Source: Oribacterium sp. (GTDB taxonomy: Bacteria; Bacillota; Clostridia; Lachnospirales; Lachnospiraceae). Taken from it: 32,579 nt of DNA. The stretch covers positions 1 to 32,579 of the forward strand of contig JAILDF010000313.1 of the NCBI GenBank assembly GCA_024689585.1. Direction: 5' to 3'. Positions 22,058 to 31,108 of the stretch are shown here, piece by piece; position 1 is the first letter of the stretch, and every line of letters begins with the position of its first letter. The notes under the pieces are model-generated. The model made no database searches. It saw only the letters and a list, made by a program, of their open reading frames with translations, and was not told where the DNA came from. The translations under genes were made by a program, and so were the position numbers.

Positions 22058-22370
22058 TAGAATATACGGTCTGCTGGGCTTATGCCAGAGAGCAGGCAAA
22101 TTGAAAAGTGGCGAGTTCGCAGTGGAAAAATCCCTTAAGGGCGGAAAATCCCAGCTAGTGATAGTTCCCGAGGATGCGTCAGATAACACAAAGAAAAAAT
22201 TCAAAAATATGACAACCTACAGAAATGTGCCGTATTTTGAATTGGGAACTAAAGACAGGCTGGGGGCACAGCTCGGAAAATCCGAACGGTCATCTCTCAG
22301 CGTAGAAGATGAAGGTTTCGCAAAAGCGATGATCAAATATATTGACGGAGGTAATGTGAATGTCAGATGA
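22047..22370 (+). CDS. L7Ae/YlxQ-family ribosomal-associated protein
   Basis: [50 protein letters not shown] start overlapping rnpM. Confidence 0.9.
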
Positions 22371-25116
22371 GAACCAGAAAGAAAATGGATTAAACAGCAA
22401 GGAAGCTAAGAAGGAAGAGGCACCAAAGAAGAAAAAGCTTGCTGTGGTTTTCCATTCCCAGAACTCCGCTAATCATAAGAACCATCCACTTGGCGGAAAG
22501 CTTTCTTCAGCCAAGGAGCAGGGCGCACGTAAAACCAGATCTGCTGCAGAGGCAAAAGAAAAGGATCAGCCCAAGAAGACAAGCCCCAACGGAAGACCGC
22601 TTCCTCCGGGAACAGCAAGAGTCACACCTCTTCGCGAGCTGAATGAAATTCAACAGCGTCAGGCCGAAGAAGAAGCAAAGGCTGAGGCAGCACGTAAGGC
22701 AGCTGAGGAAGAAGCAAGAAAGAAGGCTGAAATCGAGGCTAAGGCAAGAGCTGAAGAAGAAGCAAAGGCTGAAGCAGCACGTAAGGCTGCAGAAGAAACA
22801 GCCAGAAAGTCTGAGACACGTCCTTCAGCTTCTGTCGAAGGAAGATCCGGCGATCAGAAGCCTCGTATGGACAGAAATACAGGCGACCGTCAGCCGAGAA
22901 CCGGCTTCGCACCGAGAACCGGCTTCGCACCGAGAACCGACCGTGGCGACAGACCTCAGGGAGGTTTCCATAAGGACGGTGCAAGACCTGCCGGCACAGG
23001 AAGACCCGCAGACCGAAACGGTCAGCAGAGACCGGGACAGAGACCTGCAGGTACAGGCTTCGGCGGTCAGAGACGTACTGACAGTTCAGCTGCGGCTGTA
23101 GATATTTCATCAAAGCCAACAGCCAACAGAAATGCACACAAGCCATCAGACAAGAATTTCGGAAATAAGAATTTCGATAACGAGAGAGCTGAGGCAGCCA
23201 AGAGAAATCGTACCAATCGTAAGCAGAATAAGTACACTGCTGAGCAGTCTTACGAGAGAGACGATGAGATGGCAGCACGCAAGAAGAAGACCGGAAAGGG
23301 TGCATTTATCAAGCCTGAAGTTGTTAAGCCGGTTGAGGAAGAGATCAAGTCCATCACAATCCCTGAGGTTATCACCATCAAGGATCTTGCGGACAAGATG
23401 AAGCAGAAGCCTGCCGACATCATCAAGAAGCTCTTCATGCAGGGCCAGATGGTAACTCTCAATACCGAGCTTTCCTATGAAGAAGCCGAGAATATCGCAG
23501 TTGATTACGATATCCTTTGCGAGATGGAAGAGAAGGTAGATGTAATCGCAGAGCTTGTTAAGGATGATATCGAAGACCAGGAAGAGGATATGGTATCCAG
23601 ACCTCCTGTAGTCTGCGTAATGGGTCACGTTGACCACGGTAAAACATCTATCCTCGATGCTATCCGTAATACAAATGTTACCGCAAAGGAAGCCGGCGGT
23701 ATCACTCAGTCCATCGGTGCTTACCAGGTATCAGTTAATGTTAACGGCGAAGACCGTCTCATTACCTTCCTTGATACACCGGGACACGAGGCATTCACAG
23801 CCATGCGTATGCGTGGTGCACAGTCAACAGATATCGCTGTACTTGTAGTAGCAGCAGATGACGGTGTCATGCCTCAGACAGTAGAAGCTATCAACCACGC
23901 AAAGGCTGCAAACACTCCTATCATCGTAGCTATCAACAAGATCGATAAGGAGGGTGCAAATCCTGACCGTGTTAAGCAGGAGCTTATGAAATATGATCTT
24001 GTTCCCGAGGATTACGGCGGAGATACCATCTGTGTACCTGTTTCCGCAAAGAAGGGTATCGGTATCGAAGATCTTCTTGAGAACGTAGTTCTTGAGGCAG
24101 ACGTTATGGAGCTTAAGGCTAACCAGAATCGTTCAGCTTACGGTGTTGTTATCGAGGCAGAGCTTGATAAGGGACGTGGTTCCGTTGCCAGACTTCTGGT
24201 TCAGAAGGGAACTCTTCACCAGGGTGATGTAGTTGCAGTAGGTTCCGCTTACGGTAAGGTTCGTGCCATGACTGACGACAAGGGCAGACGTATCAAAAAG
24301 GCCGGTCCTTCACAGCCATGTGAGATACTTGGTCTCAATACTGTTCCCAATGCCGGAGAGATTTTCCAGGTTAAGGACAGCGAGAAGGAAGCCAAGGCTT
24401 ATGCTGCTGCCTTCGTAACAGAGAACAAGCAGAAGATGGTTGAGGAATCCAAGAAGAAGGTATCTCTTGATGCACTCTTCGACCAGATCAAGGCCGGCGA
24501 GATCAAGGAACTTCCTATCGTTGTCAAGGCTGACGTTCAGGGTTCAGTTGAGGCCGTTAAGGATTCCCTTGAGAAGATCAAGAACGATGAGGTTGCCGTT
24601 AAGGTTATCCATTCCGGTGTTGGTGCCATCAACGAATCCGATGTGGTTCTTGCAAGTGCTTCCAATGCTATCGTCATCGGTTTTGACGTTAAGCCTGATG
24701 CTACCGCAAAGGAAATTGCAGAGCGCGAGCATGTTGATGTAAGACTTTACAACATTATCTATAAGGCTATCGAAGATATCGAGGATGCAATGAAGGGTAT
24801 GCTTGCTCCTGTTTATGAGGAGAAGGTTATCGGTCATGCAGAGATCCGTCAGATCTTCAAGGCTTCCGGCGTTGGTAACATCGCAGGATGTATGGTTAAG
24901 GACGGTCTCGTACAGAGAGGTGCCAAGGCCCGTATCATGCGCGGACCAAAGCAGGATCTGGTATTCGAGGGCGAGATTGCTTCCGTAAAGCGTTTCAAGG
25001 ACGATGTAAAGGAAGTAAAGGCAGGCTACGAATGTGGTCTTGTATTTGAAGCCTTTAACGAGATCGAGATCGATGATTATGTTGAAGTCTATGTAATGGA
25101 AGAGGTTAAGCGTTGA
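22360..25116 (+). CDS. infB: Translation initiation factor IF-2
   Basis: [44 protein letters not shown]; long Ala/Glu/Lys/Arg-rich N-terminus. Confidence 0.98.
22663..22810 (+). repeat. Imperfect tandem repeat in infB (87-bp / 29-aa period)
   Basis: [29 protein letters not shown] followed by [20 protein letters not shown]. Confidence 0.85.
22894..22938 (+). repeat. Perfect 18-bp tandem repeat in infB (2.5 copies)
   Basis: ccgagaaccggcttcgca x2 + ccgagaacc, encoding (P)[14 protein letters not shown]. Confidence 0.95.
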
Positions 25117-25529
25117 GAAAAAATTCCGTTAAAAATACAAGAATAAATGCCGAGGTCATGAGAGAACTTTCCGTAGCGATCCGTGACCTCAAGGATCCCC
25201 GCATTTCACCTATGGTGTCTGTTACCGGTGCTGATGTAACTCCCGATCTTCAGTATTGCAGAGTTTACATTTCAGTACTCGGCAGCGAGGAATCCCTTAA
25301 AAAAACCATGGAAGGCTTAAAGGCCGCCAGTGGTTTCCTGCGTCGTGAACTTGCGCAGACCGTAAATCTCCGTCACACCCCGGAGCTTCAGTTCATTGAG
25401 GATCACTCCATAGAGTATGGTGCCCACATGGAAGAGCTCATCAGCAAGGTTGCCAGAGAAGATGCGGAAAAGCATGTTGATCAGGAAGAAGATCCTGCTC
25501 AGGATCCTGACACAACAGAAGAAGTATGA
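25113..25529 (+). CDS. rbfA: Ribosome-binding factor A
   Basis: (M)[56 protein letters not shown] start overlapping infB stop. Confidence 0.95.
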
Positions 25530-25592: not shown

Positions 25593-26576
25593 TTGATGAA
25601 CGAATTTGAAAAGTTGATAGAAGCAGCAGAAAGCATTTGCATTCTCGGACACACAAATCCCGATGGCGATTGTCTCGGTTCCACCCTCGGTACAAAGCTT
25701 TATATACAGGAGCGTTACCCTGATAAGAAGGTCAATGTTTATCTCCAGACCGCCAATGAAAAATTCAGGTTTATGCCCGGTTTCGACGACATTATACATG
25801 TTCCCTCAGACCGCAAATACCAGTTATGCATCATCTGTGACTGTAACGGCTATGACAGAGTAGGTGACTTCAAGATTCTTGCGGAGCACGCCGAAAATGT
25901 CTATGTTGTGGATCATCACATTCCCGGAAATCAGAAATTCGAAAAGTGCACTATCATCCCTGAGGCTTCAAGTACCTGTGAGGTTGTTTACGATCTCATG
26001 GATGACAGCTTCGTTAATAAGGATGCAGCTTCCTGTCTCTATCTTGGCTTAGTCCACGATACAGGCGTTTTCAAATATAACTGCACCTCCAAACATACCA
26101 TGGAGATAGCAGGACAGCTTATGTCAAAGGGAATAGATTTCGGTTCCATAATTGATGATACCTACTACACAAAGACCTATGCACAGCAGCAGGTAATGGG
26201 CCGTGTCCTTACGGAAAGCCTTATGATCATGGACAAGAGGTGTATAGCCGGATGGCTGACCGCCAAGGACATGAGATTTTACAATGTCACCTCTAAAGAC
26301 ATTGACGGAATAGTAAGTACCATGCGTGAAACCAGAGGCGTAGACTGTGCTGTTTTTATTTACGAAATGACCAACCAGAATTATAAAGTAAGCCTGAGAA
26401 GCAACAACAATATGCTGGATGTTGCCAAGGTGGCTTCTCATTTTGGTGGCGGAGGTCATAAAATGGCAGCCGGATGCACCTTACAGGGGTCACATTTTGA
26501 TGTTATAAACAACGTTACAAAGGAGTTGGCAAAACAGCTGGATGCGCCGGGATTCGTGTCTAACAGCGCCCAGTGA
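25593..26576 (+). CDS. nrnA: DHH-family phosphoesterase, NrnA-like (nanoRNase/pAp phosphatase)
   Basis: ILGHTNPDGDCLGSTLG, VDHHIPG, C-terminal DHHA1 SLRSNNNMLDVAKVASHFGGGGHKMAAGC. Confidence 0.92.
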   Translation: MMNEFEKLIEAAESICILGHTNPDGDCLGSTLGTKLYIQERYPDKKVNVYLQTANEKFRFMPGFDDIIHVPSDRKYQLCIICDCNGYDRVGDFKILAEHAENVYVVDHHIPGNQKFEKCTIIPEASSTCEVVYDLMDDSFVNKDAASCLYLGLVHDTGVFKYNCTSKHTMEIAGQLMSKGIDFGSIIDDTYYTKTYAQQQVMGRVLTESLMIMDKRCIAGWLTAKDMRFYNVTSKDIDGIVSTMRETRGVDCAVFIYEMTNQNYKVSLRSNNNMLDVAKVASHFGGGGHKMAAGCTLQGSHFDVINNVTKELAKQLDAPGFVSNSAQ

Positions 26577-26586
26577 AAAATAACCA

Positions 26587-28179
26587 ATGGATGGAATTAT
26601 AGTTGTAAATAAAGAAAAAAACTGGACCAGCTTTGATGTCACAAAAAAGCTCCGCTCAATCCTTCATGAAAAGAAGATCGGTCACACAGGAACTCTGGAC
26701 CCGCTGGCGGAAGGAGTGCTGGTGGTCTGTGCCGGTGCCGCAACAAAGCTTGTGGAAACCATCTCAGGTACCGAAAAGGTTTATGAAGCTGAGATGCAGC
26801 TTGGTATGATCACTGATACAGAGGATATAACAGGAACCGTGCTGGAAGAGAAGCCTGTGAAGGTTACCGAAGATGAGGTCAGGGATGCCATAAGTTCTTT
26901 CATAGGAACCTATGACCAGATTCCGCCCATGTACAGTGCGAAAAAGATCAATGGCAAAAAGCTTTATGATCTTGCCCGTCAGGGAAAGACCGTTGAACGT
27001 AAAGCCAACAGAATCACGGTACATGACATTAAAATACTTGATATCAGTCTTCCTTATATAAAAATGGAGGTCACCTGTTCCAAAGGCACCTACATAAGAA
27101 CCTTATGTAAGGACATAGGAGAAAAGCTGGGAACAGGAGCTGCCATGACTGCATTGCTCCGCACCAGAGTGGGAAAGTACACTCTTTCAGAAAGCCATAC
27201 CATAACAGAGCTTTCAGAGCTTGAGCAGAAGGGTGAACTCTATTCCGTTGTAAAGCCGCCTATTTTTGTTCCGGAACCGGCAGTTGTTGCCTTCGGAAAA
27301 TTTGACGGAAGCCATAAAGGACACCAGCTTATATTTGAGAATATGTTTGCCATTGCGGGAGCCAAGCATTACAAAACCGCTGTGCTGACGTTCTCACAAA
27401 ATCCGGACAATCTATTTTCCGGAACCAGTAAAACCTCGATTTCCTCAAGTGATGAACACCTCACAAGACTCAGAAACCTTGGTTTTGATTATGTATTTTC
27501 ATATCCTGTGAACCGCGACACCATGAAGGTTCCGGCGGAATTCTTTTTAAGAGATGTGCTTATCGAGGGCATGAATGCAAAGGACATCGTTGCAGGAACC
27601 GACTGCAGGTTCGGTCACAAGGCACAGGGCGATGCGGACATGCTGCTGGCCCTTCAGGAAAAATACGGTTATACCGCCCACATCATCAAAAAACGTCAGG
27701 TTCTTGATGAGAACGGTAACTCCAGAGAGATATCCAGTACCTTTATCCGTGAAGAGATCCAGAAAGGCAATGTCAAGCTGGCAGCAGATCTTCTCGGAAG
27801 GCACGTTGCATTAAGCGGCACAGTCATCCACGGAAAACATTTAGGCTCAACAGTCCTTGGTTTTCCTACCGCGAATATCCTGCCAACTTCAGGAAAGACC
27901 CTTCCGAAAGCCGGAGTTTATATCTCCAGAGTCCTGGTGGGGCAGGTGCTTTACCGGGGAGTTACCAATATAGGTACAAATCCCACAGTAGCGGACGACA
28001 ATCCCGTAAGTGTGGAAACCCATATAATTAATTTCAACAAAGATATCTATGGTCAGAAAATCCGCGTGGAATTTATGGACCGGATAAGAGACCAGGAAAA
28101 ATTTGCATCCCTTGAAGTCCTTAAACACCAGTTGGAGAAGGATGTAGATGCGGCAATGCATTATCCCATGGATTTGTAA
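26587..28179 (+). CDS. Fusion: tRNA pseudouridine synthase TruB catalytic domain + RibF (riboflavin kinase/FAD synthetase)
   Basis: TruB motifs GHTGTLDPLAEGVLVVCAGAATKL, CSKGTYIRTLCKDIGEKLG; then RibF motifs VVAFGKFDGSHKGHQLI, GTDCRFGHKAQGD, ISSTFIREEIQKGNVKLAADLLGR, LGFPTANI, YRGVTNIGTNPTV, IYGQKIRVEFMDRIRDQEKF in one uninterrupted frame. Confidence 0.93.
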   Translation: MDGIIVVNKEKNWTSFDVTKKLRSILHEKKIGHTGTLDPLAEGVLVVCAGAATKLVETISGTEKVYEAEMQLGMITDTEDITGTVLEEKPVKVTEDEVRDAISSFIGTYDQIPPMYSAKKINGKKLYDLARQGKTVERKANRITVHDIKILDISLPYIKMEVTCSKGTYIRTLCKDIGEKLGTGAAMTALLRTRVGKYTLSESHTITELSELEQKGELYSVVKPPIFVPEPAVVAFGKFDGSHKGHQLIFENMFAIAGAKHYKTAVLTFSQNPDNLFSGTSKTSISSSDEHLTRLRNLGFDYVFSYPVNRDTMKVPAEFFLRDVLIEGMNAKDIVAGTDCRFGHKAQGDADMLLALQEKYGYTAHIIKKRQVLDENGNSREISSTFIREEIQKGNVKLAADLLGRHVALSGTVIHGKHLGSTVLGFPTANILPTSGKTLPKAGVYISRVLVGQVLYRGVTNIGTNPTVADDNPVSVETHIINFNKDIYGQKIRVEFMDRIRDQEKFASLEVLKHQLEKDVDAAMHYPMDL

Positions 28180-28341: not shown

Positions 28342-28608
28342 ATGATTTCTAAGGAAAAGAAAGCCGAGATCATCGCACAGTACGGACGTAAGCCCGGTGA
28401 CACAGGTTCACCTGAGGTTCAGGTTGCTATTCTTACAACAAGAATCAACGAGCTTACTGAGCACCTTAAGAAGAACCCTAAGGATCACCACTCAAGAAGA
28501 GGACTTCTTATGATGGTAGGTCAGAGAAGAGGACTTCTTCAGTACCTTGCTAAGACAGACCTTGAGGGATACAGATCACTCATCGAGAAGCTCGGTATCA
28601 GAAAGTAA
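28342..28608 (+). CDS. rpsO: 30S ribosomal protein S15
   Basis: [51 protein letters not shown]. Confidence 0.98.
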
Positions 28609-29014: not shown

Positions 29015-31108
29015 ATGTACAAGAGTTATTCAATGGAACTCGCCGGCAGAACACTTACCGTTGATATCGGTCGTGTTTGTGCACAGGCAAACGGTGCAGC
29101 ACTTATGCACTATGGCGATACAACCGTACTTTCAACATGTACCGCTTCAGCCGCTCCAAGAGACGGCATTGATTTCTTCCCTCTTCAGATCGAGTATGAG
29201 GAGAAGATGTATTCAGTCGGTAAATTCCCCGGTGGATTTAAGAAGAGAGAAGGCCGTGCAGGTGATAATGCTATCCTTACATCACGTGTTATCGACCGTC
29301 CTATGAGACCTCTTTTCCCTAAGGATTTCAGAAATGACTGTCTCGTTGACAACCTGGTTATGTCAGTTGATCAGGATTGCTCACCTGAGCTTCTTGCAAT
29401 GCTTGGTTCATCCCTCGCAACAGCTATCTCAGATGTACCATGGGACGGACCATGTGCATCAACACAGGTTGGTATGATAAACGGCGAGTTCATCATCAAC
29501 CCTACCAATGCAGAGAAGGCAGTTTCAGACCTTGCTCTTACAGTTGCTTCAACCCGCGACAAGGTTATCATGATCGAAGCAGGTGCAAACTGCATTTCCG
29601 ATGACAAGATGATCGAGGCTATCTACAAGGCTGACGAGATCAACAAGCAGATCATCGGATTCTTCGATTCCATCATCGCAGAGTGCGGAAAGAAGAAGAT
29701 GGAATATGTCAGTGCTGCAGTACCTGAAGAGGTATTTGAGAAGATCAAGTCCATCGTTCCTCCTGAGGAGATGGAAACAGCAGTATTCACTGATGACAAG
29801 CAGCAGAGAGATCTCAACATGGCTGAGGTTACAAAGAAGCTTGAAGAGGCTCTTGCAGAAGACGAGGAAGCTCTTGCTATCCTTCCTGATGCCATCTATC
29901 AGTATGAGAAGAAGACCGTTCGTAAGATGATCCTCAAGGATCACAAGAGACCGGATGGTCGTAGAATCGACGAGATCAGACCTCTTGAAGCTGAGGTAGA
30001 CCTTATTCCAAGAGTACACGGTTCTGCTATGTTCAAGCGTGGACAGACTCAGATCCTTGATATCGTAACCCTTGCTCCGCTTTCAGAGGTTCAGAAGGTT
30101 GAGGAACTTAACGAGTACATCACAGAGAAGCGTTACCTTCACCAGTACAACTTCCCGGGTTACTCAGTAGGTGAGGCTAAGGCAAGCCGCGGTCCGGGAC
30201 GTCGTGAGATCGGTCACGGAGCACTTGCTGAGAGAGCGCTCCTTCCTGTACTTCCTTCAGTAGAAGATTTCCCATATGCTATCCGCGCGGTTTCAGAGAC
30301 AATGGAGTCTAACGGTTCTACATCAATGGGTTCAACCTGTGCGTCCTGCCTCTCACTTATGGCAGCCGGCGTTCCTATCAAGGAGCCTGTAGCAGGTATC
30401 AGCTGCGGTCTTGTAACCGGTGATACAGATGATGATTATCTGGTTCTTACAGATATCCAGGGTCTCGAGGATTTCTTCGGCGACATGGACTTCAAGGTAA
30501 CAGGTACTCATGAAGGTATCACAGCTATCCAGATGGATATCAAGATCCACGGTCTTACAAAGGATATCGTAACAGAAGCCATCAAGAGAGCACATGAAGC
30601 ACGTCTTTTCATCATGGACGGCGTTATGAAGGATGCTATCGCAGAGCCTCGTAAGGAGCTTTCACCATATGCACCTAAGATCATCACCATCCAGATTGAT
30701 CCTGAAAAGATCGGTGATGTTATCGGCAAGCAGGGTAAGACCATCAATGCAATCATTGATGAAACAGGTGCAAAGATCGATATCGACGATAACGGTATGG
30801 TTTCCATCTCCGGCATTGACCTTGCAGCTCTTGAAAAGGCTAAGAAGATCGTCGAGTCCATCGTTAATGAAATCGAGCCTGGACAGATCCTCACAGGTAA
30901 GGTTGTACGTCTTATGAACTTCGGTGCATTCGTACAGTTAAGCCCTAACAAGGACGGTATGGTTCACATCTCAAAGCTTGCTGATGGAAGAGTTGATAAG
31001 GTTGAGGATGTTGTAAACATCGGCGATGAGGTTACCGTAAAGGTACAGGAAATCGACAAGATGGGCAGAATCAATCTCACCATGAGACCACAGGATCTTA
31101 AAGATTGA
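29015..31108 (+). CDS. pnp: Polyribonucleotide nucleotidyltransferase
   Basis: DYGDTTVLSTCTAS-type RNase PH core, FKKREGRAGDNAILTSRVIDRPMRPLFPK, C-terminal KH (IGKQGKTINAIIDETGAKIDID) and S1 domains. Confidence 0.98.
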   Translation: MYKSYSMELAGRTLTVDIGRVCAQANGAALMHYGDTTVLSTCTASAAPRDGIDFFPLQIEYEEKMYSVGKFPGGFKKREGRAGDNAILTSRVIDRPMRPLFPKDFRNDCLVDNLVMSVDQDCSPELLAMLGSSLATAISDVPWDGPCASTQVGMINGEFIINPTNAEKAVSDLALTVASTRDKVIMIEAGANCISDDKMIEAIYKADEINKQIIGFFDSIIAECGKKKMEYVSAAVPEEVFEKIKSIVPPEEMETAVFTDDKQQRDLNMAEVTKKLEEALAEDEEALAILPDAIYQYEKKTVRKMILKDHKRPDGRRIDEIRPLEAEVDLIPRVHGSAMFKRGQTQILDIVTLAPLSEVQKVEELNEYITEKRYLHQYNFPGYSVGEAKASRGPGRREIGHGALAERALLPVLPSVEDFPYAIRAVSETMESNGSTSMGSTCASCLSLMAAGVPIKEPVAGISCGLVTGDTDDDYLVLTDIQGLEDFFGDMDFKVTGTHEGITAIQMDIKIHGLTKDIVTEAIKRAHEARLFIMDGVMKDAIAEPRKELSPYAPKIITIQIDPEKIGDVIGKQGKTINAIIDETGAKIDIDDNGMVSISGIDLAALEKAKKIVESIVNEIEPGQILTGKVVRLMNFGAFVQLSPNKDGMVHISKLADGRVDKVEDVVNIGDEVTVKVQEIDKMGRINLTMRPQDLKD

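Follow-up and report, generated by a model that had tools for sequence, protein, structure and literature searches.

In Oribacterium, the pseudouridine synthase TruB and the bifunctional RibF are joined in one open reading frame (ORF), a new combination of domains from known enzymes that is fixed in a single genus. In the window, i.e., the whole stretch of 32,579 nucleotides of Oribacterium sp. DNA that was analysed, a single 530-aa ORF with an ATG start and a stop codon spans positions 26587-28179 of the + strand. Judged from its sequence, this ORF very probably yields a single trifunctional polypeptide making Psi55 and FMN/FAD at a fixed 1:1 dosage. The gene belongs to the infB-rbfA-nrnA-truB-ribF-rpsO-pnp cluster, which is usual and conserved in Bacillota, and the features of the region are the following:

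22360..25116, + strand: infB (IF2), upstream; identified from sequence and used for the IF2 tree
25113..25529, + strand: rbfA, upstream; identified from sequence, tree marker
25593..26576, + strand: nrnA-like DHH/DHHA1 phosphoesterase, upstream; its end lies 10 nt upstream of the start of the fusion
26587..28179, + strand: truB-ribF fusion ORF, 530 aa plus stop; equivalent ORF in 17/17 genus genomes
26587..27258, + strand: TruB Psi55 synthase catalytic core, residues 1-224; from Pfam, NCBIfam and alignment
27097..27258, + strand: PF16198 TruB_C_2, residues 171-224; from Pfam; part of the catalytic domain (its second half) rather than PUA
27250..27276, + strand: fusion junction, residues 222-230, VKPPIFVPE; from alignment, with dN/dS over 210-245
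27274..27714, + strand: FMN adenylyltransferase (FMNAT; FAD synthetase) domain, residues 230-376; from Pfam, with GKFDGSHKGH inside
27793..28161, + strand: riboflavin kinase domain, residues 403-525; from Pfam, with PTAN at 427-430 and E477
28342..28608, + strand: rpsO (S15), downstream; tree marker
29015..31108, + strand: pnp (PNPase), downstream; tree marker

At positions 26560-26589, the fusion ATG is seen without an evident Shine-Dalgarno sequence and 10 nt past the nrnA stop, which suggests that translation of the fusion may be coupled to nrnA.

A Pfam search of the 530-aa protein recovered the TruB core followed by a complete bifunctional RibF within one ORF, bearing out the in-frame TruB-RibF fusion proposed in the original prediction. 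The matches were TruB_N at residues 23-170 (E 3e-57), TruB_C_2 (PF16198) at 171-224 (E 4e-13), FAD_syn at 230-376 (E 1e-35) and Flavokinase at 403-525 (E 6e-42), and the NCBIfam models TIGR00431 (TruB; 255.9 bits vs a cut-off of 151.45) and TIGR00083 (RibF; 228.7 bits vs 184.35) were both passed. The compact TruB-RibF fusion, defined as one ORF with no PUA domain, a fixed short junction and a single origin, comprises 17/17 genus members and the Clostridia MAG L031; among these, curated cut-offs were exceeded by TruB_N and FAD_syn in 18/18 and by Flavokinase in 17/18. The core carries the TruB catalytic motifs GHTGTLDP, with catalytic D38, and GTYIRTL, with Y169 and R171, all invariant in 18 homologues, and the RibF half keeps the motifs of its family, namely GxFDGxHxGH (GKFDGSHKGH), SSTxIR (ISSTFIR, residues 382-388, just past the FMNAT domain), PTAN (427-430) and the catalytic Glu (E477). 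The invariance of the TruB residues, together with a core dN/dS of 0.06-0.08 between close relatives, argues against the TruB half being a degenerate passenger kept as a translated leader for RibF; such a passenger is highly improbable, even if truB deletion leaves exponential growth of E. coli unaffected, according to a paper cited in PMC11301382.

A C-terminal PUA domain, which provides an extra tRNA contact, is usual in bacterial TruB, and the TIGR00431 model ends at position 210 and does not require it. In the fusion, RibF follows directly once the core ends, at residue 224, the segments alignable to stand-alone TruB and RibF homologues lie 4 residues apart, and no PUA match was obtained with Pfam within the 530-aa protein; unfused TruBs of relatives retaining the domain extend 57-124 residues beyond the core, whereas the fusion has none. 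By homology, the domain lost from the fusion is the TruB C-terminal PUA, since a profile of the tails of unfused relatives (A3) matches T. maritima TruB 1ze1 at residues 223-284 (E 2e-7), and Pfam recognizes in these tails PF09157 (TruB-C_2) in 15/22 and PF17785 (PUA_3) in 6/22. No homologue of the PUA tail was found elsewhere in the 17 genus genomes. A relocated PUA was considered for a weak match in G016 (E 0.007), which contains stops and was dismissed. The earlier claim that the TruB C-terminal domain is absent, with RibF in its place, was thus accurate for PUA, but not for the Pfam family TruB_C_2, which is still there. Despite its "TruB C-terminal" name, PF16198 makes up the latter half of the pseudouridine-synthase domain (PMC7955657); being within the catalytic core, its presence does not contradict the missing C-terminal domain.

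The junction is indel-free across the 17 Oribacterium species and L031, with P224 invariant and identical spacing in all, and between the last residues of the TruB core and the FMNAT motif the protein alignment of the 17 members (48-98% identity to the window) is free of indels. For comparisons with unsaturated dS, pairwise dN/dS was 0.02-0.10 for the core, the junction (residues 210-245) and RibF, indicating strong purifying selection through the junction of the fusion ORF. Since 17/17 genus members preserve the reading frame, the spacing of the junction and the catalytic motifs, chance or the indel error feared in the original prediction is excluded. The window genome (G000) is fragmented (317 contigs, 77% complete), and a sequencing or assembly artefact, in which a missed stop or an indel merges two genes, might be suspected on that account; however, the equivalent ORF occurs at these identities in 17 genomes of different origin, two-contig assemblies included, with no junction indel. 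Such an artefact is extremely improbable, and assembly error is ruled out by the conservation across the 17 genomes. Further, no Rfam match to an RNA element was obtained in the fusion region.

One ORF may also give rise to two proteins, if a stand-alone RibF is made from an internal start or released by proteolysis near residue 222, a reading that we consider unlikely. It draws on codon -15 relative to GKFDG, which is ATG, GTG or TTG in 14/17 genus members and is situated near the start site of stand-alone RibF; however, this codon is GTA in the window, a start-like codon is also absent from L022 and L015, no conserved Shine-Dalgarno-like sequence is found at this position among genus members, and the junction is under selection, indel-free and predicted to be ordered. 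The window has no in-frame ATG, GTG or TTG from codon -42 to +16, in agreement with the initial remark that no obvious Shine-Dalgarno plus start is present at the junction, and the search for a conserved internal RibF start across the 17 species, a separate start having been raised as an objection to the fusion, found none.

For the single-chain product, the AlphaFold model reached a mean pLDDT of 89.5 and a pTM of 0.82, with junction residues 211-240 (pLDDT about 89-94) predicted to be ordered, without a disordered or flexible linker. One half of the model matches TruB structures and the other FAD synthetase structures; no solved chain spanning both halves was present among the matches listed. 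Compared with bacterial TruB (TIGR00431; T. maritima 1ze1/1r3e, E. coli 1k8w), the fusion has the same whole catalytic core and motifs (35-42% identity in the structure alignment), but a RibF module where those enzymes carry their C-terminal PUA. With respect to bifunctional RibF (TIGR00083; C. ammoniagenes 2x0k, S. pneumoniae 3op1), the FMNAT-kinase order and the motifs are the same (TM-score about 0.8 over the target); those proteins are stand-alone, whereas the RibF of the fusion lies behind TruB and is devoid of its own start codon or N-terminus. Human TRUB1 (8jfx, "TruB domain of TruB1"), whose TruB catalytic domain was solved alone, is a close fold match to the model, but is eukaryotic and has no RibF.

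Each of the 17 genus genomes has one TruB, one FAD_syn and one Flavokinase locus, all in the same ORF, and no second truB, ribF or PUA copy was found in any of them; the fusion is therefore the only candidate source of the essential cofactor enzyme. The ORF measures 499-569 residues in these genomes, the value of 499 being due to a contig end. Within the genus, one member (L014:1480-3171, - strand) shows an insertion of ~31 residues in the TruB core near position 93, and in G001 an insertion breaks the TruB_N match into two parts. Most of the named matches, at 65-98% identity, were from Oribacterium. Searching for the architecture across relatives, as originally proposed, gave the compact fusion in 17/17 Oribacterium and, among the matches listed, nowhere else in the family sample; among the matches listed for ~1,300 sampled Bacillota genomes, none was found outside the genus, and the same held for the best ~150 matches listed for the family (397 genomes), class (391) and phylum (398) samples, where numbers of PUA-less and of PUA-retaining fused TruBs are to be read as "at least". 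In a scan of 84,980 species genomes, the best 80 matches consisted solely of Oribacterium-type loci and L031. No report of a TruB-RibF fusion was found in the open literature searched, and the concern that the architecture might already be catalogued as common found no catalogue entry behind it in the literature and libraries searched. Adjacent operon genes are known to fuse, and both component enzymes are well known; the novelty is real but modest.

Other arrangements of the two genes were also recovered. PUA-less stand-alone TruBs (L030, L076, L078/L112/L137/L152, L113/L136/L151, L115/L126, L116/L128 and L127) end 3-12 residues past the core, much as the core of the fusion does, and correspond to approximately four independent losses in the flanking-gene tree; they are, however, unfused, with ribF separate, adjacent or elsewhere. 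A metagenome contig with a 239-aa TruB adjoining a 278-aa RibF has been described (PMC4630832). Fusions that retain PUA were verified in two single genomes, L087 (Clostridium sp. chh4-2) and L111/L138 (G277); they share TruB and RibF in one ORF with the compact fusion, but keep PUA, have 80-90 residues between the segments and are of independent origin. Their open frames measure 673 aa (L087:2815-4833) and 670 aa (L138). In L087, an internal Met persists at the old RibF start, and this fusion may therefore reflect a sequencing indel. Common PUA-retaining fusions, considered on the basis of open frames of ~600-720 aa, were rejected: 11/11 loci checked were separate in-frame genes with a stop between them, and such lengths were thus not counted as fusions.

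In a tree of the flanking genes (infB, rbfA, nrnA, rpsO and pnp; 30 rows; IQ-TREE), the compact fusions, L031 included, formed one clade with 100/98 support, which was also recovered by IF2 alone and by the TruB+RibF trees. The trees indicate a single, ancient fusion event in the common ancestor of Oribacterium and its sister, L031, whose placement is less sure than the support values suggest, as it is a long branch. At L031:3001-4218, a TruB-FMNAT fusion has the same junction as in the genus, and the frame terminates past the FMNAT domain. No Flavokinase family match was found in the L031 genome (1.9 Mb), and by its gene content this MAG has lost the riboflavin kinase domain while keeping the fusion. 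The next sister group includes G112, with a PUA-bearing unfused TruB, and G365 and L078, with PUA-less unfused TruBs. In the genomes of the latter two (L169, L172), ribF is on another contig and does not adjoin truB, which is unusual for the neighbourhood. Over 102 loci, PUA-less unfused TruB required four changes and PUA-retaining fusion two. When the PUA-less sisters were forced together with the fusion clade, the constraint was not rejected (AU p = 0.1), so that the order of PUA loss first and fusion afterwards is compatible with the data, although an ancestral PUA loss before fusion is not favoured. Regarding the proposed deletion of the TruB C-terminus and the intergenic region, the fused arrangement is indeed ~250 nt shorter than the unfused one of its sister G112 (L139), where the tail runs from 3941 and the RibF segment from 4201, the difference being PUA, stop, intergenic gap and ribF start; a single deletion, or a PUA loss that came first, may account for it.

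We propose that truB and ribF, as neighbours, would have been joined once in the Oribacterium ancestor, at the cost of the PUA-coding end and the stop codon of truB, the gap between the two genes and the start of ribF. In the resulting chain, the TruB core would still isomerise U55 in the tRNA T arm, and the RibF module would phosphorylate riboflavin to FMN and then adenylylate it to FAD, both activities being produced 1:1 from a single start site. PUA would be dispensable for the function of the TruB core, which probably suffices without it, since unfused TruBs have lost PUA about four times; this dispensability is consistent with the recognition of a 17-nt T-arm stem-loop by E. coli TruB (PMC9458420). 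The presence of both activities in the cell and the absence of processing are what we infer, and any benefit would be one of dosage, or the fusion may be simply neutral, rather than cross-regulation. The suggested linking of tRNA Psi55 formation with flavin synthesis is upheld as a physical linkage with shared dosage only, both being in one ORF.

A closer, functional coupling, in which Psi55 formation or tRNA chaperoning is under the control of the flavin state or of RibF occupancy, or RibF assumes the tRNA contact of PUA, is improbable. RibF does sit at the PUA position, the junction is ordered and pTM high in the AlphaFold model, junction spacing is fixed genus-wide, and TruB has a tRNA-chaperone role independent of its activity (PMC11301382). 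Against this, unfused TruBs lost PUA about four times without replacement, and therefore nothing needs to fill its place; moreover, L031 dropped the kinase domain yet keeps the fusion, and two single genomes have fusions with PUA retained. We know of no flavin-dependent Psi55 chemistry, which also counts against such coupling. That RibF functionally replaced PUA, with flavin or ATP binding modulating TruB tRNA binding, chaperoning or Psi55 formation, is likewise a slim prospect; if true, it would directly link flavin status with tRNA maturation.

Taken as a trifunctional chain, the Oribacterium fusion is a clean, genus-fixed case in which a tRNA-modification enzyme and an enzyme of cofactor biosynthesis share one polypeptide, which automatic annotation pipelines may label as TruB or RibF only. 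The wider clade contains unfused, PUA-less, fused and kinase-less forms, and the order of steps can therefore be studied. Together with the approximately four PUA losses in unfused relatives, the fusion provides natural evidence for a dispensable TruB PUA domain in bacteria.
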